IMG/VR virus record: IMGVR_UViG_3300050821_013159
Coordinates: 1-21,002 of that record
DNA: 21,002 nucleotides
Source: a virus
Direction: 5' to 3' (one strand)
The notes below the pieces were generated by a model, which worked only from the letters and a program-made list of their open reading frames with translations, searched no databases and was not told the origin of the DNA. Position 1 is the first letter of the stretch; each line of letters begins with the position of its first letter. Made by a program: the position numbers and the translations under genes. Shown piece after piece: positions 7,179-18,912 of this stretch.

Positions 7179-8201
7179 TTACGAGTACTGCATTGAGATG
7201 ATGGTGATGGTCTCCGGACGAACGCCCCACCCAGAGGTGATGCGCCATTCCGAGAGGACGTCAATCGCGCCGCCGGGCAGGGGCGTCGGGATTTCACGCG
7301 GAGCCGCCATGTCGCAGTACATGAGAGTGCAGGCCTCCATGCCGGGGGCCAGCTTGGCGAACTCGTTGGTGTTGATCTTCGAGCCCTGGGGCTTCTTCAC
7401 CTCGGGCATGACGATCAGGACTGCGTCGTGGCCGCCCTGACCCTTGCCAATCAGGGTGTCGTCGTATACCCAGATCACGGTGTCGTCGTTCATGGCCAGG
7501 ACATCCTTGACCATGCCGGCGGTGCTGGTAGAACCGGCACCCTCCCGCTGGAAGTCGGTGACCTGGACGATGCCCTGGTACTCGAAGGTGGACAACACGC
7601 GCTGCGGGCCGAGGATGGTGAACTCGTGACCGATGCCGAGCTGATTTGTCCGGGTCTTGAGCGAGCTGATCTGCGACAGCAGGAAGATGCCCATCTGTCC
7701 GGGGTCGTAGGTGACCACGGTGTCGTGCATGTTGCTGTCGGCCGGGAGAGCCACCGCCGTCGCGCCCTGGGTGTAGACGAGACCCTCTCCGTTCTGCGGT
7801 TGGAAGCCGTAGAGGAGCGCCTGTCTGGCGAGCTGGAAGTGACCCTGGCGCATGCCGAGGCGCTGGGCCTCGACAATCGAGACGCCCCAGCGGTTCATAG
7901 CCGCCGTGTCGTGGTGGTCGTACTCGCCACGAACCCGGAGCAGGTACGACGGGGTGCTGATCATCGACAGCGTGGTGCTGATCGAGGGCAGCAGGTTGTA
8001 GGCCGACTGACCGGCGGAGACCTTCGTGCGGACATCAATGCGCTTGATGTACACGTAGAGGTCGCCCTCGGAGAGGCGGACGAGCGGCTCACCCTCAGCG
8101 AGGGTGTCGAACGCTCCGGACGCCTGCGTGTAGGGCAGGATGATGTCCGGAGCAATGTATGACGGGTTCACCGTCACAAAGGCGGGCGAGATATTCGCCA
8201 T
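7179..8201 (-). CDS. Major capsid protein (DUF2184-like)
   Basis: A 340-residue protein starting MANISPAFVTVNPSYIAP with an AAGGAG ribosome binding site. It resembles the DUF2184 group of HK97-fold capsid proteins: an N-terminal arm, the helical segment WGVSIVEAQRLGMRQGHF, the stretch HEFTILGPQRVLSTFEYQGI and a C-terminal EWRITSGWGVRPETI typical of these subunits. It is preceded by the cement-like and protease/scaffold genes, as expected of a head module, and followed by a strong hairpin. It would build the icosahedral shell. Confidence 0.88.
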   Translation of the reverse strand: MANISPAFVTVNPSYIAPDIILPYTQASGAFDTLAEGEPLVRLSEGDLYVYIKRIDVRTKVSAGQSAYNLLPSISTTLSMISTPSYLLRVRGEYDHHDTAAMNRWGVSIVEAQRLGMRQGHFQLARQALLYGFQPQNGEGLVYTQGATAVALPADSNMHDTVVTYDPGQMGIFLLSQISSLKTRTNQLGIGHEFTILGPQRVLSTFEYQGIVQVTDFQREGAGSTSTAGMVKDVLAMNDDTVIWVYDDTLIGKGQGGHDAVLIVMPEVKKPQGSKINTNEFAKLAPGMEACTLMYCDMAAPREIPTPLPGGAIDVLSEWRITSGWGVRPETITIISMQYS

Positions 8202-8240: not shown

Positions 8241-9125
8241 TCAGATCAGGATGATGGCGCAGGAGCCGCTGCGGTTCCAGGTGGCGAAGCCGCTGACCGG
8301 GTCGTAGACGACGGTCATGGAGTTGCCGATGTTGACGTCCAGCACCCGGACCGGGAGCAGGCCGCCTCCCGCCACGATGTGGCCAGCAGTCGTCGCGGGA
8401 GAGACCCCGCCCGGTTCCACGGCCAGAGCGTAGATGAAGTGGGTGTTGTCGGCCGTCGCGGTGACGATTACGTCCCCGTTGTAGCCCGCCGGGACCGCGC
8501 CTGCGATGACCGCGTGGTCACCAACCGCGAGGTTGTGCGCCGCTGCGGTGACGACCGCCACCTGGCCTCCGCCCGTGTTGGACCAGGTCTGCGAGGTGAT
8601 CGCAATCTGAGCCTCGGACGCCTCGAAGGGGACCAGGGCCTGGATGTCGAAGTCCCAGGAGACCTGCTGGGTGATAATGTTGCCTTCGAGGTCCACCAGC
8701 GACGGGTCGCAGGCGACCGCAATGCGGGCTCCCGTCCCGAGCCGGTAGAAGTTGACCCCCATGCCCGAGGTCGCCAGCGGGACGGGCGACTGTGGGGTGT
8801 TGATCATGGAGTGATCCTGATCGAACACGGTGAAGCCGGTGATGTCGCCCGCCGCCGGAGTAGACCCTGCGACCTGGGTGGCGTGAACGAGCGCTCCCCC
8901 GAGCGAAGGATGCGGGGTGGCCGCGCTCGGAGCCGTCGGGATATTCTCCGAGATGGCCACACCGCCCCAGAAGGGCTCGGGATCGGTTAGCGCGGCGTAG
9001 CCGCCCGCCAGCTGGTTGCGGATGGCAGGGTCGTTCAGGGCGGTGCCCTGGATGTAGCCCTCCGAGGAGGTGTTGAACGAACCCGGGGCGTTGGTCGTGA
9101 TCACCGGGTTAAATGCGATGGACAT
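8241..9125 (-). CDS. Capsid cement/decoration-like structural protein
   Basis: A 294-residue protein with an AAGGAA ribosome binding site before ATG 9125, between the protease-scaffold gene and the capsid gene, where structural cement proteins are usual. The middle, IAVACDPSLVDLEG followed by QQVSWDFDIQALVPF, resembles phage cement proteins with a 'G-x-x-V-x-W' step. Residues about 176-254 form an extra block (AHNLAVGD, AGYNGD, HFIYAL) like the one inserted in the sheath. The C-terminus is hydrophobic and short (GSCAIILI). Decoration function is inferred. Confidence 0.65.
   Translation of the reverse strand: MSIAFNPVITTNAPGSFNTSSEGYIQGTALNDPAIRNQLAGGYAALTDPEPFWGGVAISENIPTAPSAATPHPSLGGALVHATQVAGSTPAAGDITGFTVFDQDHSMINTPQSPVPLATSGMGVNFYRLGTGARIAVACDPSLVDLEGNIITQQVSWDFDIQALVPFEASEAQIAITSQTWSNTGGGQVAVVTAAAHNLAVGDHAVIAGAVPAGYNGDVIVTATADNTHFIYALAVEPGGVSPATTAGHIVAGGGLLPVRVLDVNIGNSMTVVYDPVSGFATWNRSGSCAIILI
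8364..8600 (-). other. HGL/YNG-type domain in the cement-like protein
   Basis: Residues about 176-254 repeat the ordered pattern seen in the sheath insert: H-N-L, two residues, G-D, then I-A-G-A-V-P-A-G-YNG and, about ten residues on, HFIYAL. The flanking protein reads through continuously, so this is a domain insertion rather than a separate gene. Confidence 0.6.
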
Positions 9126-9165
9126 GTGGGACTTCCTTATGTCTGGTGAAGCGATTTACAAAGGG

Positions 9166-9188
9166 GCGAGGGGCGGGAACCCCCTCGC
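9166..9188 (-). terminator. Hairpin between scaffold/protease and cement genes
   Basis: Inverted repeat GCGAGGGG / CCCCTCGC (8 bp, 7-base loop), just past the protease-scaffold stop at 9198 in the 72-base gap before the cement gene. On the minus strand the right arm is followed by CCCTTTG, a poor U-tract. It could be a weak terminator or a processing/stability element. Confidence 0.5.
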
Positions 9189-9197
9189 ACTTCGTAA

Positions 9198-10016
9198 TCA
9201 GGCGTTGCGGATGCCGAGCAGCTTGCGCTTGGTGTGGTTCCCCTTCATCCAGGCCCCGGGGCGACCCTGGAACGTGGTGATCTGGCGCCCAGTGACGTCG
9301 CGTCGGGTAATCGGCCGGAGCACATCCACCGGGATGTCCACCGGGTTGTTGCCGGCGGCCTCCGCGTCCGCGTAAATCATGCTCTCCACGTTCTCGAAGG
9401 CGCTATCATGGATGACCGCGAGGTCAATGTCCTTCCACTTCGGGCTGAAGGCCTTGAGGGCCGAGGCGGACCGGCGGCGGTAGGAGATGGGGGTCTCCCC
9501 CGGCAGCGGACGGGAGGCGGACTGACCGTGGAGAGACATGACGCTGTCCGCCCGCATCTGGCAGTCGGCTAGGGTGTTGAGGTCCTCATCCGTCTGGGGC
9601 TTGGGCAGGGCGTCCTGGACAGCCTTGATCGCCGCACGAACGTCCTCGCTGTCCTTGCGGGACTTCTCCTCCGCGTCCTTGCGGTCCTTCTCAGACTTCT
9701 CCATGGCCATCTTCTCGTCCGCGTCCTTCTTGGCCTTGTCCATGGCGATCTGCTTTTCATCGCCCGCCTTGCGCTTCTCCTCTGCCTCGGCGTCGGCGCG
9801 GGCCTTCTCCTTCTCGTCGTAGGCGTCCATGCGCTTGGAGACGCTGTCGAGACAGGTCAGGACCTTGTCCCGCTTCTCACCCGCCTCTGCGTCGGCCTTC
9901 TTGCGCTCGGCCTCCTCGGCGTCCTTCTTAGCCTTGTCCTGAAGGGCCTGGGTCTCCGCGTCCTTCTTCTCCTGCGCGGCCTTTGCCTCTGCAGTCTTCT
10001 TTTCTTCGTCAGTCAT
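9198..10016 (-). CDS. Internal scaffold protein (nested in-frame start)
   Basis: Inside the fusion gene an ATG at 10016 (Met360, MTDEEKKTAEAK) is preceded by TTGGAG with 8 bases of spacing, a better ribosome binding site than most in this window. It separates the protease domain from the coiled-coil scaffold segment exactly. Translation from it would give a 272-residue scaffold without protease, like lambda Nu3 within gene C. Residues 1-130 of the product are almost entirely charged helix. Production of the separate protein is inferred from the start signal and domain boundary. Confidence 0.65.
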   Translation of the reverse strand: MTDEEKKTAEAKAAQEKKDAETQALQDKAKKDAEEAERKKADAEAGEKRDKVLTCLDSVSKRMDAYDEKEKARADAEAEEKRKAGDEKQIAMDKAKKDADEKMAMEKSEKDRKDAEEKSRKDSEDVRAAIKAVQDALPKPQTDEDLNTLADCQMRADSVMSLHGQSASRPLPGETPISYRRRSASALKAFSPKWKDIDLAVIHDSAFENVESMIYADAEAAGNNPVDIPVDVLRPITRRDVTGRQITTFQGRPGAWMKGNHTKRKLLGIRNA

Positions 10017-11093
10017 GTCACTATCTCCAATGGTTTCAAAAGCTATACCACGCGGCTCCCCGCCCTTGTCCCAGACCCCCTTCGGGCATATAGCCAGGTG
10101 GTCTAGCAGTTGGGGGTCTCCCTCAACGAGCATCACCGAGCCGTCCTCGTGGATCAGCTTGGTGTTGGTCTCGTTGGGATTACGAAACACAACGGACGGG
10201 GAGGTGGAGAGTTGGTTGTCTCTCAACATCTTGACTGTTGCGTCGTCGTAAATCTTAGCGATGCCCCAGACCTCGTCATTGACGATGTAGGGAAGGCAGA
10301 TCACCCCCACCACCCGGTCCTGGAACTCCGCGCTATTCAAATCAGTCTTTTTCGGGTGCTCCATGATGACCGGGAGCCCGTTGCAGCGCTGCAGGAAGCG
10401 CTCGTTGAGGTAGAGGTCCGGCTTGCGCCAGACGTACTCCTTGCGCGCCTTCCGGTAGGCGAGGCCCGTCCCCGTGATTCGCATGGCCACGAGCGTCATG
10501 CCGTGGAATGCCTGACCGGAGACCAGCAGACCGTCGCGGATCATCTCCGCCACGTCTAGCTCGTTGGCATTCAACCGGCGGAGCGATACCGCGACCCCGG
10601 GGTGGAGCGGCATCGGCGGGCTGGAGACTGGTACCCAGGCATAGGCGACGTGCTCCGCGTCCAGCACCGGCTCAAAGGGCTTGTCCACCTTCTGCGCGAA
10701 GGTAGTGAAGTCCACAACATACGGAGCCTCGGCGGCCGGGGCCAAGGGAGGGCCAACCCCGGCCGCTTCAGCCGCAGCCCCCTCGGGGACTACCTCGGAC
10801 GGCACGCCCTCCAGCCGCCGTGTTCGAGTTAGTTCTGAGAGCGGCCCGGCCGGGGCCTTGCCCCCCAACTCCTCCTCGCACTCGCGACGAGCGGCGGCCT
10901 CCAGGTTCTCGCCCTTCTCCACCTTGCCGCCGGGTAGGCACCACTCCCCGCCGTGGTCACCCTCGGACGACCTCTGGAGGAACAAGGCACGATGGTCCTT
11001 TGTGAGGAACATCACACCCGCGCCGACTATGGTGTCTGAGTCAGTCAAGTGGGTTGCCACTCCGCGAGGTCCCTGTGCTGTTCTTATCCACAC
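9198..11093 (-). CDS. Nudix hydrolase + DUF2213-like prohead protease + scaffold fusion
   Basis: A 631-residue protein with three parts. Residues about 20-175 are a Nudix domain: the box runs from Gly56 (KVEKGE) through Arg70-Glu71, Glu74-Glu75 to Gly77, matching Gx5Ex7REUxEExGU; an Ala/Pro/Gly-rich insertion lies at about 100-123. Residues about 185-345 are a DUF2213-type prohead protease, with His246 (IMEHPK) and Ser296-Ser300 (LSTSPSVVF) as candidate catalytic residues. Residues from Met360 are a highly charged Lys/Glu/Ala coiled coil typical of scaffolds, then a Pro/Arg-containing C-terminal domain. The protease would cut scaffold and capsid during head maturation. GTG 11093 follows AGGGG; GTG 11060 and TTG 11048 are other possible starts. 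The N-terminus overlaps the upstream gene by 53 bases. Confidence 0.85.
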   Translation of the reverse strand: MWIRTAQGPRGVATHLTDSDTIVGAGVMFLTKDHRALFLQRSSEGDHGGEWCLPGGKVEKGENLEAAARRECEEELGGKAPAGPLSELTRTRRLEGVPSEVVPEGAAAEAAGVGPPLAPAAEAPYVVDFTTFAQKVDKPFEPVLDAEHVAYAWVPVSSPPMPLHPGVAVSLRRLNANELDVAEMIRDGLLVSGQAFHGMTLVAMRITGTGLAYRKARKEYVWRKPDLYLNERFLQRCNGLPVIMEHPKKTDLNSAEFQDRVVGVICLPYIVNDEVWGIAKIYDDATVKMLRDNQLSTSPSVVFRNPNETNTKLIHEDGSVMLVEGDPQLLDHLAICPKGVWDKGGEPRGIAFETIGDSDMTDEEKKTAEAKAAQEKKDAETQALQDKAKKDAEEAERKKADAEAGEKRDKVLTCLDSVSKRMDAYDEKEKARADAEAEEKRKAGDEKQIAMDKAKKDADEKMAMEKSEKDRKDAEEKSRKDSEDVRAAIKAVQDALPKPQTDEDLNTLADCQMRADSVMSLHGQSASRPLPGETPISYRRRSASALKAFSPKWKDIDLAVIHDSAFENVESMIYADAEAAGNNPVDIPVDVLRPITRRDVTGRQITTFQGRPGAWMKGNHTKRKLLGIRNA

Positions 11094-11913
11094 GCGACCC
11101 CTGGAGGCTCACGAGGTGAGCCCGGGCCTCGGCTAGGCTATCCTTCACTGACTTGCTGTCCTTGGCCTTATCCTCCGCACTCGCCACTGACACCTTATCG
11201 TCCTTCTCCACCGCGCCGCCCTCCAGCTGGGCCAGCGTCTCCTTCGCGGCCTCCAGCTCGGTCTTAATCGCCTCGCCCTTCTCGGCGGCCATCTCATCCA
11301 TCTGCTTCTGGAGGCGTGAGACCTTGCCCCGCGCCTCTACCAGCGCGTGCTCCCGCTTGGACCCGGGGCTCTCATCCGCATCCCGGCGGGCCTCCATACT
11401 GTCCATGTACCTCGCACAGCGGTCCGCGACCCGAACGGCGGCATCACAGACCTTGGAAATCACGTCGCTTCGCATGGCTCTCTCCGCCCTGGCTGTCTCC
11501 CCGTCCGAGCGCGGAGCGGGTACGGTTGTATCGTTCACCCCGACGGGGATGGTGCTATTATCGGCACTATCCCTACGGCTCCCAAAAGCATAAGTGGGAG
11601 TAGAGGGTATGTAATGCTTTTGATGCTCAGCTAGGTCTGACTCAGCCTTAGCTAAACGATTGCGAGCGTTCTGTTGCAGCTTCTCCTCACCCGCCTTCCA
11701 AAACTTATCAATATCCCTCTGAGCTACGTTCCGCTTCTGAAGTAGCTTGGTGTACACCTCATTCCACTCGGCCCAGGATCGATATGGGTTGGCATCCTTA
11801 CGAGCCTCACTATACGCAATCGCCACGGCCTGCTTCTGGGGCTTCCCGGCCGCCATCTCTGTCTTCACGTTCTGTGAGAAGGCGGCTGAAGATTTTCCAG
11901 TCTCAAGCGACAC
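11041..11913 (-). CDS. Coiled-coil protein with GKPQKQAVAIA motif, function unknown
   Basis: A 290-residue protein starting at GTG 11913 behind AAGGAG (8-base spacing), overlapping the ATPase gene by 11 bases. Residues about 6-40 contain SQNVKTEMAAGKPQKQAVAI, a short helical motif that recurs in unrelated phage proteins, often capsid-associated. The middle is low-complexity; residues about 190-275 are Lys/Glu/Ala-rich coiled coil (KVSRLQKQMDEMAAEKGEA). No membrane segment. It sits directly before the protease-scaffold fusion and may be a second scaffold or internal head protein, but this is inference. Confidence 0.7.
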   Translation of the reverse strand: MSLETGKSSAAFSQNVKTEMAAGKPQKQAVAIAYSEARKDANPYRSWAEWNEVYTKLLQKRNVAQRDIDKFWKAGEEKLQQNARNRLAKAESDLAEHQKHYIPSTPTYAFGSRRDSADNSTIPVGVNDTTVPAPRSDGETARAERAMRSDVISKVCDAAVRVADRCARYMDSMEARRDADESPGSKREHALVEARGKVSRLQKQMDEMAAEKGEAIKTELEAAKETLAQLEGGAVEKDDKVSVASAEDKAKDSKSVKDSLAEARAHLVSLQGSRVDKNSTGTSRSGNPLD

Positions 11914-12688
11914 GTGAGGCGCTCCTTACCAGCTTGCCGAGGCCCACGCGGTCGTACTCCGCGCACACGTTCTTCATCCAGTCCCGGACGTAGCCCCGAC
12001 ACATCTTCGAGTAACGGGCATCCAGCCCGAAGGCGTCGAACCCCATGGCCGCCTGCTGGACCTCGATGGCCGCCCGGGTCTCCAGGTGCGGCACCGTGAT
12101 CGTCACCGGCTCTAACGTCGCGAGGACCTTCGCAAAGTGGGGGTCCTTCTCCCACTGCTCGTAGCCGTAGGTGTCGATCAGGTTCTTCACCGGGTAGTAG
12201 TGGCTGCCCTCTCCAAGGGCCGCGATCATGGCCGCGACCTCGTTGAGCGAGGCAACACTCTGCCCTAGGACGTGAACCACGGCCAGGTTCAGCTCTCCCC
12301 CCCGGATATCGTCCAGGAGGCCCGTGCGACCGAATGCGGAGATGAGGTCCGACATCTGACCCGCCTTGATGTCCACCAGCGTAACGCCGTCCACGCTATC
12401 AAAGGCCTTCATCTGGTCATCAACCTTTGTGACGTCGATGATGTCGGCCGCCGGGACAAAGCGCTTCAGGTCACCCTTCGGGTACTCTGTGTCGTAGGTC
12501 TTGTGGAGAGACTTGTAGCGGGCGAGATAGTCCTCCGCCGTCCGGGATACGGTAGTCTTGCCCACCCCACCCTTGTCGGCCCCCACCACGATCACGAGGG
12601 GCCGGGGGGGCGTGGACAACTTGGGCGAGGGGTGGACCCGCTCACGGGTCGTGTCGCCGTGGGTGATCATCTCGTCAACGGTCGGCAT
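11903..12688 (-). CDS. ParA/MinD-type P-loop ATPase in the head operon
   Basis: A 261-residue protein with a short N-terminal extension and then VVGADKGGVGKTTVSR; residues 39-46 (KGGVGKTT) are a deviant Walker A with the signature lysine Lys39. A Walker B/switch-like step LVDIKAGQ lies at residues 104-111 (Asp106), and Asp66 (TYDTEYPKGD) is a switch I candidate. These features define the ParA/MinD/ArsA-type dimerising ATPases; the shape also recalls TraL/VirC1-like proteins of mobile elements. No partner such as ParB is visible. It lies between the small membrane protein gene and the coiled-coil gene, overlapping the latter. Not a packaging ATPase, since the large terminase is separate. What it positions or moves is unknown. 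Confidence 0.8.
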   Translation of the reverse strand: MPTVDEMITHGDTTRERVHPSPKLSTPPRPLVIVVGADKGGVGKTTVSRTAEDYLARYKSLHKTYDTEYPKGDLKRFVPAADIIDVTKVDDQMKAFDSVDGVTLVDIKAGQMSDLISAFGRTGLLDDIRGGELNLAVVHVLGQSVASLNEVAAMIAALGEGSHYYPVKNLIDTYGYEQWEKDPHFAKVLATLEPVTITVPHLETRAAIEVQQAAMGFDAFGLDARYSKMCRGYVRDWMKNVCAEYDRVGLGKLVRSASRVA

Positions 12689-12892: not shown

Positions 12893-13732
12893 TTACGAAG
12901 CGAGGGCGCGGCGGGCCGCCGCCTGCGCCTCCTGGCCCTTGATGGTGATCATGTTCGCAGGTAGCTCCCGAAGGTGATAGAGCCACTGCGCGTTGCAGCG
13001 GCAGAACGGCTCCTCTGCCACCGCAGTGATGCTGTCGTAGTAGCCGCCATCCCCGGGCTTGACGTAGCCCCGATCAGCGGCCCAGCTGTTACGCAATAGG
13101 TACACGACCCCGTCCCGCTCCTTGTGCTCCTCCCGGTAGTTGTACCCGGGCTGCCTCCAGTGGGAGCGCCAGATCAGCGCGATGGCCCCGCCGCCCTCGG
13201 CCAGGACGTGTCCCAGCGAGGCGTTGAGCTTGTGGCCCTGGTCTATCAGGACACGGTTAACCTCAAACTTGTCCTGCTTCATGGCCTTTCGCAGGTCAGC
13301 CTGCACCTCCGGCCGGTCAGTGGACTTCGCGTTGTCCCGACCCGGGAGCGAGGTGGACCAGCCCTGGAACCGCTTCAGGGTCTTGTCAATCGCGTCCTCG
13401 CGGTTGAGCTTGATCAGGTTGGCTGCCGCCATGATCCGCCGATCCAGTTCAGCGCGAAGGGCCGGGCGGACCTTCTCCAGTGTGAACCGGGATACTCCGG
13501 GGTGCTGTCGGAGTATCGTCCCTCCGTCTACCTGCTTACGATAGATTGAGTGGAGGGCGTCAGAGAGCATCTGCTCCAGCCTTAGGGGATCAGCCGAGGC
13601 CCGCTCGGCAGCCAACCTGATCTGCTCTGTCCAGTATCGCACGCGGTCCATAGAGTCAAAGCCGTGGGCGACCATGTCGTTGATCGCCTCGGTGAGGACG
13701 GCGAAGAACTCTTTCTGCGGACCGGGGGCCAC
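12893..13732 (-). CDS. MuF-like minor head / head morphogenesis protein
   Basis: A 279-residue protein starting at GTG 13732, whose G is the last base of the portal stop (TAGTG). The N-terminal half is helical. The C-terminal half carries NRVLIDQGHKLNASLG, a conserved WRQPGYNYREEHKERD block and, at residues 243-246, FCRC, corresponding to the Cys-x-Cys end motif of MuF proteins. MuF-like proteins bind near the portal and are packaged inside the head. Gene order portal then MuF is the rule in such phages. Confidence 0.82.
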   Translation of the reverse strand: MAPGPQKEFFAVLTEAINDMVAHGFDSMDRVRYWTEQIRLAAERASADPLRLEQMLSDALHSIYRKQVDGGTILRQHPGVSRFTLEKVRPALRAELDRRIMAAANLIKLNREDAIDKTLKRFQGWSTSLPGRDNAKSTDRPEVQADLRKAMKQDKFEVNRVLIDQGHKLNASLGHVLAEGGGAIALIWRSHWRQPGYNYREEHKERDGVVYLLRNSWAADRGYVKPGDGGYYDSITAVAEEPFCRCNAQWLYHLRELPANMITIKGQEAQAAARRALAS

Positions 13733-15342
13733 TACTTGCCTCCCGCCGCCTGAGCCGAGCGGACCGCATGGTCCACTAGCTCGTAGATGTTGCTGCCCGA
13801 CCTCGCGGCAATCTTTGCCACCTGCCGTGCCCGGAGGCGTGCCGCTGCCGGGGCCTGTAGCCGAGCCGAGGCCTCCTCGTAGCGAGCCAGCGCGGAATCA
13901 GCGCGGCCAAAGCCGGAGCCCTCGTCCTTGGGCTTGGGCTCCTGACCTTCCTCCCCACCCATGGCGGGCTGAGGCGGCACGTACTCGCGCAGGGCGTCGA
14001 TGTCGAGGATCATGGGGTTGGTGAACAGGAACTTCATGTCATTGATGTTGTCCATCACCCACTCGATGGCGGCGGCCTTGTTCTCCGGGTCCATGCTCGG
14101 GACTAGGGCCTCCAGGATCGCGACCGCCGCCTTCAGCTTCACGTCGTCCACCTTAACCTTCTCGCTGTCCGGCTCGGTGAGCAGAGAGGGCCACTTAGCC
14201 TTGAACGAGTTCTTCCAATCCATGAACGCCTTCTTATAGGGCACGTCCTTGTACTCTGGGAACTCGGCCTGAATGGTCGCGTAGAAAGCCGGGGACCAGT
14301 ACTTGTACATGACGATCTTGTCGAAGAAGTCGTACAGGGGCGACATCTGGACACGGACCCGGTCGATGTACCGCGCGACCGCCTTGGCGTCCTCGGTGCC
14401 GTCCGCAAACCCCTCCGCGAACGTCTCCTGGTTGAGCAGCATCGCAGGCATATCGGCCGCCACCGCAATGTTCTCCAGTATGTTCTTTCGGGCCCAGCCC
14501 CCCGCGCCGTCGATGTTCTGCATGTTGAGGGTGGTGACGTCCTCGTTGTCCTGCGCACTGACCGACAGGACCTCGTTCGTCTCGCCCATCTTAAGCAGGT
14601 TGCGCTTCACACCCGTGACCCGGGCCATGAGGTTGTTGATGGTGCTGCCCGCCTGCTTTAGCTTGGCAATCAGAAGCCCCGCCTTCCGGGCCACCATGTC
14701 GTCCGTGATCATAGTCCGGATGAACGACTTCAGCGGGAACACTGCCCTCTGGTACACCGAGCGCCCCACGTAGCCAAAGGACGAGGAGGTATACCAGATG
14801 TAGATCGGGTCCTCGTTGAGTATCACCACCGTCCGGGAGGGATGATACGCGGTTCCGTTGACTACGACGGGCGAGACCTTCTTCTGGAAGTCCGCCGCGT
14901 TAGGGTCCTGATTTAGAACGATGGAGCCAGCCGTGTTCAGCGGGTCCCACTCGTTGAACTGAATATTCAGCTCAGGCAGGTTCTCATACTTGACCGGCTG
15001 CCGGGGCGGCACGCCCTCCACCATCATACCAAGGGTGGAGACACCGTATACCCGGCTGAGGCGCATGGCGTTGAAGATGTGGCGGTCCGCCATCAACTCT
15101 TTCCAGCCGAATAAGAAGCGCTCCCGGACCCGCTCCTCCGGGCTGTTGGGGACCGTGATCTCCCGCTCCTGAGCCTGGGCCATGTTGATCGGGCTCTCGG
15201 CCATCTTGGCCCCGAGAGGGTGATGCGTGTATATGATCTTGCAGAGCTGATAGCTCGGCTCGTCCCCCGGGATGATCTCCGCCGAGCCCATGAGCTGGTC
15301 CAGAGCGTTCCCGAGTGATGTGCCCGTAGTGATATTGGACAT
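13732..15342 (-). CDS. Portal protein (DUF1073-like)
   Basis: A 536-residue protein starting at ATG 15342 overlapping the upstream stop by one base (TGATG). It resembles DUF1073-type portals: an N-terminal YTHHPLGAKMAESPINMAQ, a central SSSFGYVGRSVYQRAVFPLK region, and the conserved NILENIAVAADMPAMLLNQ followed by AEGFADGTEDAKA. The portal dodecamer sits at one capsid vertex and passes DNA. Length is within the usual range. Some family members carry an extra enzymatic domain; none is seen here, and the C-terminus is a charged tail. Confidence 0.88.
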   Translation of the reverse strand: MSNITTGTSLGNALDQLMGSAEIIPGDEPSYQLCKIIYTHHPLGAKMAESPINMAQAQEREITVPNSPEERVRERFLFGWKELMADRHIFNAMRLSRVYGVSTLGMMVEGVPPRQPVKYENLPELNIQFNEWDPLNTAGSIVLNQDPNAADFQKKVSPVVVNGTAYHPSRTVVILNEDPIYIWYTSSSFGYVGRSVYQRAVFPLKSFIRTMITDDMVARKAGLLIAKLKQAGSTINNLMARVTGVKRNLLKMGETNEVLSVSAQDNEDVTTLNMQNIDGAGGWARKNILENIAVAADMPAMLLNQETFAEGFADGTEDAKAVARYIDRVRVQMSPLYDFFDKIVMYKYWSPAFYATIQAEFPEYKDVPYKKAFMDWKNSFKAKWPSLLTEPDSEKVKVDDVKLKAAVAILEALVPSMDPENKAAAIEWVMDNINDMKFLFTNPMILDIDALREYVPPQPAMGGEEGQEPKPKDEGSGFGRADSALARYEEASARLQAPAAARLRARQVAKIAARSGSNIYELVDHAVRSAQAAGGK

Positions 15343-15626
15343 CAGCGGAACCCGCTCTGGGCTCTCGCCTGCTCGGCCTTAACGTCACCAACCGGGGGAC
15401 GGGCTCGGTGTACGACCGAGGAGGCCGTGACCTGGTGTTGCTTACCCTGACCGAGCTGGCCCCACTCGTTGAAGTCCACATGAAAGGTATAGTCATACTT
15501 GTCCAGGTGAAAGGCGACCAGCCTCCCGTTCTTAAACTCGGGTGTCCCCACGAGGATGAAGGGACCGGGGGCCACCCCGTCCGGCATGCCGGGGTCTACC
15601 CCCACGTTTCCAACTAGCTCTACCAT
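15342..15626 (-). CDS. Small protein between terminase and portal, function unknown
   Basis: A 94-residue protein overlapping the large terminase end by 7 bases and the portal start by 1 base, so certainly embedded in the operon. The core is beta-prone (GPFILVGTPEFKNGRLVAF, then YDYTFHVDFNEWGQLG), and the C-terminus is basic and polar (VKAEQARAQSGFR). No membrane segment. I do not recognise it; a packaging accessory or a small head protein would suit the position. Confidence 0.65.
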   Translation of the reverse strand: MVELVGNVGVDPGMPDGVAPGPFILVGTPEFKNGRLVAFHLDKYDYTFHVDFNEWGQLGQGKQHQVTASSVVHRARPPVGDVKAEQARAQSGFR

Positions 15627-16978
15627 CCGTCAGGGTCTCCCAGCGCGATTGACACGCCATAGGTGAAGGTGTCCAGTAGGTCATCAGCTCGCTTGGCAGC
15701 TTCCTTGTCGCCAATCCGAAAGCCTGTGACCTGGTGAAGGTGGTGGTTACGGGATACTTCCTTGTACACGGTCACCTTGTGGAAGGCGGCCCGGGTGTAC
15801 TTGACCTTTCCCGTATAGACGTAGCCCGAGGCGTTCATGGCGCGCTCGTCCTTGCCCATTGCGGTCAGCTTCGAGTTAATCTCGTGCACGTTCCAGCCGC
15901 GCCGCTTGGCCTGCTGTATCAGGACGGTCCCGGTGGACTTGTCCTCGATGTGCACCCCGAGGGAGCCACCCCTGGCCTTGTGGTCCCTAGCGAGCTGCTC
16001 CAGCTTCAGGAACACACCCTGGAGCCAGGTATCCAACAGCGATCCCTCAATCTGAACTATATCCCAGTCCAGTATCAGGAGCGGGTGGAGCACGTTATTG
16101 ATCAGCGCGTAGTAGGTAACCGCCGTGCCATCATTGTCCTTCCCGGTCTTGGCCGCGCTGTCCACGACCGCGAACACACCATCACACCTTGTCGGGGACG
16201 GGACCGGCTCCCCGTTGACGGTAAGGCTATCCTTTGAGAAGAAGGACACGCCCGAGAAGTCCACGAACTCGGCCAGGTACTCCTGCCGCCACACTAGTGG
16301 GTGCGAGTTGGCCTTCTTGTTCGCCAGGAACTTGGCGGACAGGTAGGGGTTACGGCTGGAGGGGGCGTGGTACTCCTTAAACTGGTACCTCGCCCCTCGC
16401 TTGGCTCCCGGCTTGGGCTTGTCCGCCCCTCCCGGGGAGATGCGGTACAGGAAGTTCTCCTGGTCCACTCCGTTAGTGTTGGAGCAGACAAGCACCTTAC
16501 CGTCGTAGTCCGCCAGCGTGGGCTCAATGGACTTCTCCCACTGGTCCATCATCGTCTCGTTGTTAGTAAAGGCCCCCTCGTCTATAACAATGCGGCCGTA
16601 CTTACGGGACCGGCCCGCGTCCAGGTTTTCTAGCGTCCAGAAGTCTACCCGGCCTCCGCCCACGCACCGTATGATGCCATCCGTCTTGGAGGCGTGTATC
16701 TTAATCGGGTCTAGTATGACCGACAGCTCGTGGTAGACCTCCGACATGATCTTATAGGAGGGGGCGAACCACCCCACCGGCTCCCCGGCCACCACACCAT
16801 CGGTCGCATAATTTCCACCAAAGGCCGTCTTGCCATACCGGCGGCCGCACCTCAGGATGGCGTACTGCTCGTCACAGAGTTCGTCCCAGGCTCTCTGCTG
16901 GTCGTCATAGAGGAGCGGGACCTCCACCGTGAACTCGGGGTTGATCTCTCTCGCCAGGCGTGTCGAGGCCCTAAGCAT
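15620..16978 (-). CDS. terL: Terminase large subunit
   Basis: A 452-residue packaging motor with ATPase and nuclease domains. Start ATG 16978 (MLRASTRLAREINPEF) overlaps the small-subunit stop by 8 bases and has AAGGG upstream; a GTG at 17014 would add 12 poor residues. The Walker A-like P-loop is CGRRYGKT (residues 44-51, Lys50), and Walker B is RIVIDE (Asp133-Glu134). The motor's coupling motif CSNTNG lies at residues 165-170. The RNase H-like nuclease has Asp273 (VVDSAAKTG), Glu345-Asp346 (HIEDKSTG) and Asp432/433/436 (ADDLLDTF). The protein cuts concatemers and drives DNA into the portal. Confidence 0.92.
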   Translation of the reverse strand: MLRASTRLAREINPEFTVEVPLLYDDQQRAWDELCDEQYAILRCGRRYGKTAFGGNYATDGVVAGEPVGWFAPSYKIMSEVYHELSVILDPIKIHASKTDGIIRCVGGGRVDFWTLENLDAGRSRKYGRIVIDEGAFTNNETMMDQWEKSIEPTLADYDGKVLVCSNTNGVDQENFLYRISPGGADKPKPGAKRGARYQFKEYHAPSSRNPYLSAKFLANKKANSHPLVWRQEYLAEFVDFSGVSFFSKDSLTVNGEPVPSPTRCDGVFAVVDSAAKTGKDNDGTAVTYYALINNVLHPLLILDWDIVQIEGSLLDTWLQGVFLKLEQLARDHKARGGSLGVHIEDKSTGTVLIQQAKRRGWNVHEINSKLTAMGKDERAMNASGYVYTGKVKYTRAAFHKVTVYKEVSRNHHLHQVTGFRIGDKEAAKRADDLLDTFTYGVSIALGDPDGW

Positions 16979-17624
16979 TCTCCTCGCCCTTGCGCCTCGG
17001 GAGTGGCATCGCACGGCCCACGACCCGGATGGTCACCTTCTGCTGCGAGGGGTCGATGTCGTCGCCACCCCGGCCACCGCCGTTACCCGTCGGCATGAAC
17101 CCGAGAACTTTGGCCAGCGTCACGAGGCTCTCCACCTTGTTCGCCAGCTTAAACTTGATCTTGTCCGTGCGGCCCACCTGCTCGCGGTCCTCGCCCCGAC
17201 CCTCAAACTCCTTGTACGTGTCCACCGTGATCTCGGAAACGGCAGCCATGCGCTCCTCGGGTATCTCGTCCAGGTTCTTAAAAGTTGGGAGCCCGTTAGC
17301 GTCTACCCCGAGATAGTGTACGATGTTGGAGAACCCTATCTTGGCCAACTCCGCGACAATCTTGTCCATCGTTATGTCGTGCTTCTCGGCCAGCTTGGCG
17401 TCGTGCGCCTCCAGCCACTTCTTTACGTTGGGCCTGCCCAGTATCCAGGAGCCCTGGCTGTCGGCCGAGGCCGCCGGGTATCCCGCAGCAATCGCGGCGG
17501 ACTTAATCGTGGTGTGTCCCTTCCCGGCCTCGGTGTAGGCCTTGAGGAACTTCATGTGCTTGGCCGATATCTTCTGATCCGGGTCCCCGCCCCGGGAGCT
17601 GCTCCTACTCGGCGTGCGGGCCAC
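16971..17624 (-). CDS. terS: Terminase small subunit
   Basis: A 217-residue protein starting GTG 17624, overlapping the upstream gene by 20 bases. The N-terminus (KHMKFLKAYTEAGKGHTTIK, then AAIAAGYPA) is the helix-turn-helix typical of Terminase_2-type small subunits, with a GRPNVKKWLEAH helix next. The middle carries KIGFSNIVHYL, and the end is a Gly-rich linker plus a basic tail (GRAMPLPRRKG). It would recognise the packaging site and load the large subunit. Adjacency to the large subunit and the helix pattern make the call solid. Confidence 0.88.
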   Translation of the reverse strand: MARTPSRSSSRGGDPDQKISAKHMKFLKAYTEAGKGHTTIKSAAIAAGYPAASADSQGSWILGRPNVKKWLEAHDAKLAEKHDITMDKIVAELAKIGFSNIVHYLGVDANGLPTFKNLDEIPEERMAAVSEITVDTYKEFEGRGEDREQVGRTDKIKFKLANKVESLVTLAKVLGFMPTGNGGGRGGDDIDPSQQKVTIRVVGRAMPLPRRKGEENA

Positions 17625-17808
17625 GTGTAGCCTCTACGGCCCGGCGGAGGTCGTCCTCCATCTCCGCCTTTGTCTTGTTGTAGAACGGCAGCCGCATGTT
17701 GCGGGCACTTTGTGCCTTATTACGAGCCTGGACCACATGCGAGCGAAGCTTTCGGTCAGGGTTGTGGCTCTGAATAACATGAGCGGGGTTACGCGACGGT
17801 CGCGGCAT
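17605..17808 (-). CDS. Small basic protein upstream of terS, function unknown
   Basis: The ATG at 17808 (MPRPSRNPAHVIQSHNPD) has AAGGA at 8-9 bases, whereas the longer open frame to 17883 lacks a good ribosome binding site, so a 67-residue product is preferred. It is rich in Arg, Lys, His and Asn (DRKLRSHVVQARNKAQSARN), ending with a charged helix (AEMEDDLRRAVEATRG). A nucleic-acid-binding role is suggested by charge only. It overlaps the small terminase by 20 bases. Confidence 0.55.
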   Translation of the reverse strand: MPRPSRNPAHVIQSHNPDRKLRSHVVQARNKAQSARNMRLPFYNKTKAEMEDDLRRAVEATRGPHAE

Positions 17809-17910
17809 GTGGAAAATCCTTCTGTCTGGGGTCAGGCACGCTACCGCCGGTCCCTTGACTATGGAAGGGCATGCCGATGACAATGATGAGAGACGGGCAA
17901 GCCCCTTCCA

Positions 17911-18411
17911 CTAGGTGGGAAGAGCCGCGAGGTCCTCTTCACGCACCACTAGTGAGACGCCTCGCCCGAGTATGTGGAGTAGCACCTGACAGCGCTGCTC
18001 GGGTAGGTGTCCCTGATAAATGACTGTCTTGCCGTGACAGGACGCGAGCGGCCCGCCATGAAGAAGCTTTACTTGCTGATCGCGGCGAAAGCGGCGCGGC
18101 GGCATCATGCGGGGGAGCCTGACCAGGCCGTCCAACCCCTCCAGCGCCCTAATCTTTCCAATCTCCGCACTGTTAGTCAAGCAAGGTTCGTCCCCCATCT
18201 TAACCACACTGCTCACCCCGCGCGTCCCCTCTATGGAGCGCCAGAATAAGCGGTTCAGCTTGATGAGGATGTAACCTGGGAACAGGTCGGTGACGGTCTT
18301 GACCGCGTCGTCGAAGAACCGGGGGGAGTAGCAGGAGAAGCCCTGCGCTCCCAGGTTGGCCTCTGCCCTGAGGCGGCCCCCAGGCTGAAGTGTAGCTGCG
18401 CACCAATCCAA
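17911..18411 (-). CDS. NusG/RfaH-like transcription elongation factor
   Basis: A 166-residue protein and the first gene of the leftward operon. The start is TTG 18411 (MDWCAATLQPGGRL); an in-frame TAG upstream and no ATG or GTG in between leave only this start, with GGGGA about 9 bases away. The N-terminal domain (NGN) has WCAATLQPGG, then GFSCYSP, LFPGYILIKL and GTRGVSSVVKMG with the conserved order of NusG. The C-terminal KOW part is FRRDQQVKLLHGGPLASCHG. NusG-family proteins bind RNA polymerase and promote elongation; specialised paralogues such as RfaH act on single operons. Being upstream of about 18 kb of late genes suggests antitermination of that operon. Confidence 0.82.
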   Translation of the reverse strand: MDWCAATLQPGGRLRAEANLGAQGFSCYSPRFFDDAVKTVTDLFPGYILIKLNRLFWRSIEGTRGVSSVVKMGDEPCLTNSAEIGKIRALEGLDGLVRLPRMMPPRRFRRDQQVKLLHGGPLASCHGKTVIYQGHLPEQRCQVLLHILGRGVSLVVREEDLAALPT

Positions 18412-18540
18412 TTTCGTGGTCCCCGAGGCGTCACAACGATGAGGGTCCGGTTTCTAGCCGACCCGCACAACCCCGGCAAGCCCCCCTCAGCACGGTCAGC
18501 GGCATATTCCCACATACCCCCTCGTCCCCCGGCCGCCTAT

Positions 18541-18566
18541 CGCGAGGCACGCGAGTATGCCTCGCG
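18541..18566. repeat. Inverted repeat in the divergent region
   Basis: CGCGAGGCA and TGCCTCGCG form a perfect 9-bp stem with an 8-base loop. It lies within 130 bases upstream of the NusG-like gene. It could be an RNA hairpin in the leftward leader or a protein-binding dyad; no U-tract follows. Confidence 0.55.
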
Positions 18567-18607
18567 CGAGAGAAATGACAGTGAGCGCGAGGGGGTACGC
18601 TCGTAAG

Positions 18608-18644
18608 TTCCACCCCCCGTTTAACTTCCACCTCCCATTTAGCT
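18608..18644. repeat. Tandem 18-bp direct repeat (two copies)
   Basis: Two copies of TTCCACCxCCCxTTTAxC start at 18608 and 18626, matching at 15 of 18 positions. They abut without a gap and are followed at once by another repeat pair. Suggestive of binding sites for a regulator or replication protein. Confidence 0.55.
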
Positions 18645-18662
18645 CACGATTGCCTCACGATT
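18643..18662. repeat. Direct repeat CTCACGATT with 11-bp period
   Basis: Two identical 9-mers CTCACGATT at 18643-18651 and 18654-18662, separated by GC. The period of 11 bp is about one helical turn, so both copies face the same side of the DNA, as for cooperative protein binding. Confidence 0.55.
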
Positions 18663-18672
18663 TGATTCCCAC

Positions 18673-18689
18673 ACGAGCGGATGGCTCGT
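18673..18689. repeat. Short inverted repeat
   Basis: ACGAGC and GCTCGT form a 6-bp stem around a 5-base loop, just after the direct-repeat cluster. It could be an operator half-site pair or a small hairpin. Confidence 0.35.
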
Positions 18690-18716
18690 TGAAGGTATGG
18701 CGCTTTTATTACCACA

Positions 18717-18736
18717 CGCCTTAGTTCGCCTTAATT
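18717..18736. repeat. Tandem 10-bp direct repeat
   Basis: CGCCTTAGTT is followed directly by CGCCTTAATT, one mismatch. It is the third tandem pair in a 130-base stretch, and its spacing is again close to one helical turn. Confidence 0.45.
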
Positions 18737-18791
18737 GAAGCCGGGTTCCCGATTAGAACGAGGAGGGAACGGAACGGGTATAAATACAGAT

Positions 18792-18819
18792 TTGATCACT
18801 GCCGTCATTTTGATAATAG
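18792..18819 (+). promoter_or_regulatory. Candidate sigma70-like promoter for the rightward genes
   Basis: TTGATC at 18792-18797 is separated by 16 bases from TAATAG at 18814-18819 (GATAAT overlaps at 18812-18817). It points to the first rightward gene about 110 bases downstream. The match is imperfect, and TATAAAT at 18779-18785 is another -10 candidate without a clear -35. Confidence 0.25.
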
Positions 18820-18840
18820 TGAGCTTGGGAGGGGAACGAA

Positions 18841-18871
18841 TAGGGGGTAAAATAATTTTTTAGAACCCCTA
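18841..18871. promoter_or_regulatory. AT-rich dyad, possible operator
   Basis: TAGGGG at 18841-18846 and CCCCTA at 18866-18871 are inverted around a 19-base core of nearly pure A and T. The sharp change in composition in a GC-rich genome and the symmetry suggest a protein-binding or melting site upstream of the rightward genes. Confidence 0.4.
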
Positions 18872-18890
18872 GACTTGGCCCCTTCTGCGG

Positions 18891-18912
18891 GCCTACGGTG
18901 CTACCCGTAGGC
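18891..18912 (+). promoter_or_regulatory. Leader hairpin just upstream of the first rightward ribosome binding site
   Basis: GCCTACGG and CCGTAGGC form a perfect 8-bp stem with hexaloop TGCTAC, ending 5 bases before AGGAGG (18918-18923). As RNA it would stand at the edge of the ribosome landing site, so it may stabilise the mRNA 5' end or be a protein target for translational control. Confidence 0.5.

Follow-up and report, generated by a model that had tools for sequence, protein, structure and literature searches.

An RfaH-like protein gene followed by a perfect ops element heads the late genes of a phage, suggesting an RfaH/ops-type late switch

The window analyzed here is a whole IMG/VR record of 21,002 bases. 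Since the record is a linear fragment, any size given for its late gene cluster is a lower bound. From position 18411 down to position 1, the gene-like ORFs all lie on the minus strand, the plus-strand genes begin at 18898, and a divergent intergenic region separates the two sets. The first minus-strand gene beside that region encodes an NGN-KOW protein, and the terminase, portal, and capsid genes that follow it run in the same direction for at least 17.8 kb. An earlier note on this DNA had placed a NusG/RfaH-like NGN-KOW gene at 17911-18411, first after the divergent region and heading an 18-kb late operon. Both the gene and its place are borne out; of the operon, the co-directional late genes stand as observed (at least 17.8 kb), and they would presumably be carried on a single long transcript from the divergent region. 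The features are as follows.

18412-18897, no strand assigned: intergenic region between the divergent gene sets, with short repeats and presumably the promoters of the late (minus) and the other (plus) side; blocks conserved with the nearest relative, G006
18515-18597, minus: long, strong hairpin in the leader that precedes the NGN gene (region 18500-18640, z -1.9)
17911-18411, minus: gene for an RfaH-type NGN-KOW protein, 166 aa, TTG start; Pfam, NCBIfam, and PHROG matches and an AlphaFold2 model
17809-17910, minus: leader from the NGN stop to ATG 17808, the likely start of the next gene; holds ops and a Shine-Dalgarno-like AGAAGGA
17837-17848, minus: ops element GGCGGTAGCGTG, 12 of 12 positions as in E. 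coli ops, on the non-template strand of the late genes
17605-17883, minus: small ORF past ops, probably starting at ATG 17808; G006 homologue 48% identical
16971-17624, minus: terminase small subunit (Pfam Terminase_2, PHROG 51)
15620-17014, minus: terminase large subunit, TerL (PHROG 2)
13732-15342, minus: portal protein (PHROG 146)
12893-13732, minus: head morphogenesis protein (PHROG 324)
9198-11093, minus: Nudix-domain head protein (PHROG 6216)
9163-9189, minus: hairpin in the gap that follows the Nudix gene (z -3.9), no U-tract
8241-9125, minus: structural protein (PHROG 6268), order conserved in relatives
7179-8201, minus: major capsid protein, 60% identical to the annotated one of Pantoea phage PdC23
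7081-7111, minus: hairpin downstream of the capsid gene (z -2.3), no U-tract

Two ORFs of the head module deserve separate mention. The PHROG 6216 protein carries its Nudix hydrolase domain at the N-terminus and has a capsid-operon position, and a P-loop ATPase-like ORF at 11903-12688 (minus), in mid module, is unmatched in the relatives whose gene order was compared.

The assignment of the first gene draws on several profile collections. Pfam NusG matches residues 1-88 of the 166-aa protein at 32.7 bits (gathering cut-off 22.2), PHROG 6386 ("transcription antiterminator") matches at E 1e-9, and the best curated full-length model is NCBIfam RfaH TIGR01955, at 61.3 bits over residues 9-161. The other NCBIfam scores are 29.8 bits for nusG (TIGR00922), 17.9 for UpxY, and 13.4 for LoaP. 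Neither equivalog level is reached, that for nusG being 135.7 bits and that for TIGR01955 144.5 bits; among 30 cellular loci sampled, 16 also fall under the TIGR01955 cut-off, but at 101-142 bits. A Q protein family was sought for this ORF in Pfam, NCBIfam, and PHROGs, and only NusG/RfaH-type families were returned. The housekeeping secE-nusG-rplK-rplA neighborhood is absent; the neighbors are phage terminase genes. The reading frame has no ATG, GTG, or TTG 5′ of the TTG start, and homology begins at W3, the counterpart of W4 in RfaH, which makes the TTG start plausible. The 47% identical homologue in G006 has ATG at its start, versus TTG in the window.

Structure prediction of the KOW domain had been proposed as a check on the gene, and it returned a beta-barrel: AlphaFold2 models of the window and G006 proteins, built from shallow alignments and without an RfaH control, each have an NGN domain and a beta-barrel KOW, the autoinhibited helical hairpin KOW of RfaH being absent in both. 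The top PDB match of the window model, at about 20% identity, is 8phk, which is RfaH recruited at ops-paused polymerase. In both phage proteins the NGN beta-hairpin has a shortened tip.

Immediately past this gene lies GGCGGTAGCGTG, identical over 12 nt to the E. coli ops element. It is 62 nt past the NGN stop and 28 nt ahead of the likely ATG of the next gene, in a gap where about 8e-6 exact copies would be expected by chance, the expectation for the window as a whole being 0.0044. The listed frame of the small ORF permits a TTG start at 17883, upstream of ops; ATG 17808 has the good Shine-Dalgarno, AGAAGGA. The nearest relative, G006, whose NGN and capsid proteins are 47% and 87% identical to those of the window, has GGCGGTAGCTTG, matching ops at 11 of 12 positions, 65 nt past its NGN stop. 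In the alignment of the two leaders, CCGGCGGTAGC and TGCC are invariant, with one base changed between. The role of ops in RfaH action has been described, RfaH contacting the G4-A7 loop of ops, within which element C3 and G8 form a pair (PMC5995543); the G006 deviation falls at ops position 10, outside both the loop and the C3:G8 pair. A count over 72 phage records (about 3 Mb) gave six occurrences of GGCGGTAGCNTG and two of a reversed control; only in the window and G006 does GGCGGTAGCNTG lie between NGN and terminase. Other exact ops copies in relatives lie elsewhere, in near chance number.

An RfaH-type DNA element thus exists here, but not where the earlier note had sought it: the repeat cluster upstream of the gene (near 18604-18736) consists of two-copy imperfect repeats only, with no ops-like site. 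We also considered an RNA hairpin beside ops as a LoaP-like signal and set it aside, as it is modest in the window (z -1.9) and absent in G006. One further site came from a phage contig binned with a gammaproteobacterial MAG (L203; G102:C19, PLUE01000057), in which an NGN gene lies 10 kb upstream of the capsid gene and GCCGGCAGCGTG, 10 of 12 ops positions, is found 65 nt past it.

The same layout is found in cells. With up to one mismatch allowed, 10 of 38 cellular rfaH or rfaH-like genes have ops in the 400 nt downstream, and none of 22 nusG and none of 8 upxY genes do; a second sample took the cellular proteins closest to those of the phages, and there the count is 4 of 29 (the samples of 38 and 29 overlap in part). 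The very 12-mer of the window recurs downstream of cellular rfaH-like genes, and at one cellular locus (L230) identity with the window at ops extends to 18 nt, GGCGGTAGCGTGCCTGAC. The cellular rfaH-like genes with ops that were inspected stand at the head of polysaccharide operons, and several plasmid relatives of the NGN gene do likewise.

Phylogeny, proposed in the earlier note as a check against housekeeping NusG, gives a partial answer. In a 74-row tree the window protein groups with those of G006 and G015 outside the NusG clade, among phage and plasmid rows and outside the main RfaH group also, and a tree better sampled for cellular relatives places it on the RfaH side (86/83). The AU test, however, does not reject joining the window trio with NusG (p 0.117), nor does it reject a single clade of nine phage NGN proteins (p 0.315), so that one phage NGN clade is neither supported nor rejected. 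The tree alone settles neither membership nor the number of captures; ops is the stronger argument. From sequence and layout, the phage NGN-ops pair appears to work like RfaH/ops; the protein is a possible member of RfaH in the strict sense, with a score below the TIGR01955 equivalog cut-off.

The interpretation that we favor is that this phage probably has a self-contained RfaH/ops cassette controlling its late genes, in the position of a late antiterminator like lambda Q. Observed are the family to which the protein belongs, a perfect ops that one relative also conserves, the order of the genes, and a conserved place by the terminase. These sequence features suggest that a bacterial envelope-operon switch is used by the phage to turn on its structural genes. 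Polymerase would start in the divergent region and transcribe the NGN gene first, with no need of ops, and early passes would produce the NGN factor before long transcripts become possible. At ops, just past the gene, polymerase would pause; the phage NGN protein would bind the exposed non-template strand and the polymerase and remain attached, and the NGN-bearing complex would resist pausing and Rho across the terminase, head, and tail genes, with the KOW domain possibly recruiting ribosomes. As the factor would accumulate ahead of the long transcripts, the outcome would be a delayed late switch, at the position that Q holds in lambda. It is by analogy with RfaH that we infer antitermination by the phage protein, and likewise its binding to ops, anti-Rho action, ribosome coupling, and timing. 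The operon-specific RfaH-type factor of the earlier note gains support from a perfect ops before the late genes, kept in G006, and from a terminase-side position in many relatives.

The earlier note had also offered the hairpins at 9166 and 7083 as the structures through which the NGN protein would carry polymerase, and this part we abandon. The hairpins are real (z -3.9 and -2.3) and have no U-tract, post-capsid hairpins are common among relatives, including some without detected NGN, and terminator-like sites are not above shuffles, the terminator scan of the window giving fewer sites than in shuffled sequence. They were thus rejected as intrinsic terminators and are not specific to NGN-bearing phages. 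No terminator needing override was found in the window, and an Rfam search of it returned no match. The RfaH/ops model does not require these hairpins.

Does the phage protein itself read the ops beside it? The RfaH residues that contact ops are K10, H20, R23, Q24, T72, and R73 (PMC5995543). The window protein keeps Q24, T72, and R73, and G74 as well, and differs from E. coli RfaH at the other three (K10Q, H20N, R23A); positions 70-74 of the G006 protein read RSTRG, as in many cellular RfaHs. Among cellular proteins with ops downstream, positions 20, 23, and sometimes 73 vary, and position 10 is K or R. The three altered contacts could mean that ops serves a host RfaH acting on the late operon, leaving the phage protein another job, such as modulating or competing with host NusG or RfaH; the identity of the element with that of E. 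coli and the commonness of RfaH or RfaH-like proteins in Proteobacteria speak for this as well. We nevertheless think it unlikely, in that the NGN gene adjoins ops in both phages, as it does in cells where the neighboring rfaH-like gene is the likely partner, and the protein retains Q24, T72, R73, and G74.

Related phages bear on the question from another side. The head module type of the window is shared with Pantoea phage PdC23 and Shewanella phage vB_Sb_QDWS, both without an NGN match. Portal and capsid scans collected 107 loci of relatives, and Pfam NusG matches were found in 13 of 50 and 5 of 39 records searched, one of these positives (G087) having been retrieved via its NGN gene. Among 57 TerL-bearing relatives, the 18 Pfam-positive NGN genes are all on the TerL strand: 16 lie 0.4-2.5 kb upstream of the TerL match, one lies 6.3 kb upstream, and the remaining one is at the opposite end of a linear record from TerL. 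(Near-copies among the NGN-bearing records are G003/G055 and G015/G087.) A profile built from the phage NGN proteins added seven very divergent NGN-KOW proteins missed by Pfam, whose genes are also upstream of the TerL match, 1.2-1.8 kb off, on the opposite strand. These seven loci (L262-L268, in G019, G021, G023, G024, G059, G063, and G066) remain near the terminase despite the strand change. In all, 25 of the 57 are NGN-bearing, most with the gene beside the terminase, and NGN went undetected in 23 records having at least 4 kb upstream of TerL. Most relatives' NGN proteins have 16-26% identity with the window protein, and yet the genes keep their place next to the terminase. In NGN-free relatives, no Q-like gene was recognized by eye among the ORFs at the NGN position; in several of them (L270, L271, L279, and L280), ParB-like-looking ORFs, again judged by eye, lie just ahead of the terminase.

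The ops element is less widespread than the gene. In the other NGN-bearing phages, nothing above chance-level matches was found within 600 nt downstream of the gene, and ops is present in 2 of the 18 distinct NGN-bearing phages examined; the other members must use another signal or none. This scarcity, together with the seven relatives whose NGN gene is on the opposite strand and a KOW domain modeled as a beta-barrel, as in constitutively active NusG, could be taken to mean that the phage protein is a general NusG-like factor for anti-Rho action or polymerase takeover, working genome-wide, and that ops is incidental or a mere pause site. That account seems improbable to us, since chance is very unlikely to account for a perfect ops that two phages keep at the same place and the gene remains beside the terminase instead of settling anywhere in the genome. 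Close cellular relatives do head polysaccharide operons, several having ops, but a passenger gene (a "moron") acquired together with ops from such an operon, and without a role in late expression, is very hard to credit when NGN beside the terminase recurs across many divergent phages and when two phages with NGN proteins only 47% identical share a conserved NGN-ops leader.

Returning to an RfaH/ops cassette for the late genes, a broader version can be entertained, although its chances of being right or wrong seem to us about equal: a group of tailed phages may use captured specialized NusG paralogs as Q replacements for the late genes, each recruited through a signal of its own beside the terminase, the signal of the window lineage being the canonical bacterial ops. 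Searches for the NGN proteins in named phages found no close relatives of the window and G006 proteins, and other phage NGN proteins gave weak or bacterial matches only. Two annotated NusG-like proteins, p27 of Sinorhizobium phage phi3LM21 and gp582 of Bacillus phage G, are further phage-borne NGN proteins; unlike the window gene, neither has an ops found downstream, and no functional test of either was found in the literature searched. As in the window, p27 is encoded just ahead of the terminase small subunit, in a phage unrelated to this one. The "nusG" of Microcystis phage MaAM05 was rejected as a phage NGN gene: it sits in a secE-nusG-rplK-rplA block (MW495066.1 34338-42835, L260) and is probably bacterial contamination.

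Compared with E. coli RfaH/ops, the phage pair has the same NGN-KOW architecture, the identical 12-nt ops, and RfaH as both best curated model and top structural match, and each has long operons as its actual or presumed target. The differences are a protein about 20% identical (in the structural match), three altered ops-contact residues, a shorter NGN beta-hairpin, and a KOW modeled as a barrel; moreover, E. coli RfaH acts in trans on LPS, capsule, or pilus operons, whereas the phage gene heads its own presumed target operon. In this it resembles those proteobacterial rfaH-like genes, chromosomal and plasmid, that have ops: the gene is followed by ops (often 58-132 nt past the stop) and then by the target operon. 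Those at polysaccharide operons are among the closest cellular sequences to the phage NGN, at 25-33% identity, and differ in that their target is envelope polysaccharide and that of the phage would be virion genes.

Lambda Q is encoded just upstream of the late genes, loads at the promoter-proximal qut site, and lets polymerase run through those genes. The phage NGN gene has the same position, and its product the same expected read-through role; it differs in protein family and in that it should load at the ops pause, not at a qut site. Among other specialized NusG paralogs, LoaP, UpxY, TaA, and plasmid-borne proteins, several are encoded within the operon that they control, and rfaH-like genes on prophages receive passing mention (PMC7593976). 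LoaP and UpxY are set apart from the window protein by low model scores (13.4 and 17.9 bits), and UpxY also by a separate branch in the 74-row tree and by the lack of ops downstream (0 of 8). The open-access literature searched yielded no account of ops in the late operon of a phage.

The known range of RfaH/ops comprises LPS, capsule, pilus, hemolysin, and conjugation operons. If our reading is true, virion genes would join that range through an RfaH that a phage carries together with its ops; the NusG family would then supply a counterpart to lambda Q, and two fields would be linked. For in vitro work the locus would offer a compact, self-contained natural RfaH/ops pair. Its diverged variants, with altered ops-contact residues, are material for testing recognition rules, and the locus allows one to ask whether a factor produced next to its target still requires autoinhibition.

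The divergent region holds some minor observations of its own. The hairpin at 18515-18597 has an inner perfect 9-bp stem, CGCGAGGCA/TGCCTCGCG. On the late side, TGTATTTATACC is common to the window (18777-18793, minus) and G006 (L138 5891-5907) and may be a promoter or operator. On the plus strand, CCCCTAGACTTGG, within 18841-18885 of the window and by an AT-rich stretch, is conserved in G006 near the plus-strand gene starts, and this block could be an operator or promoter of the plus-strand transcription unit.
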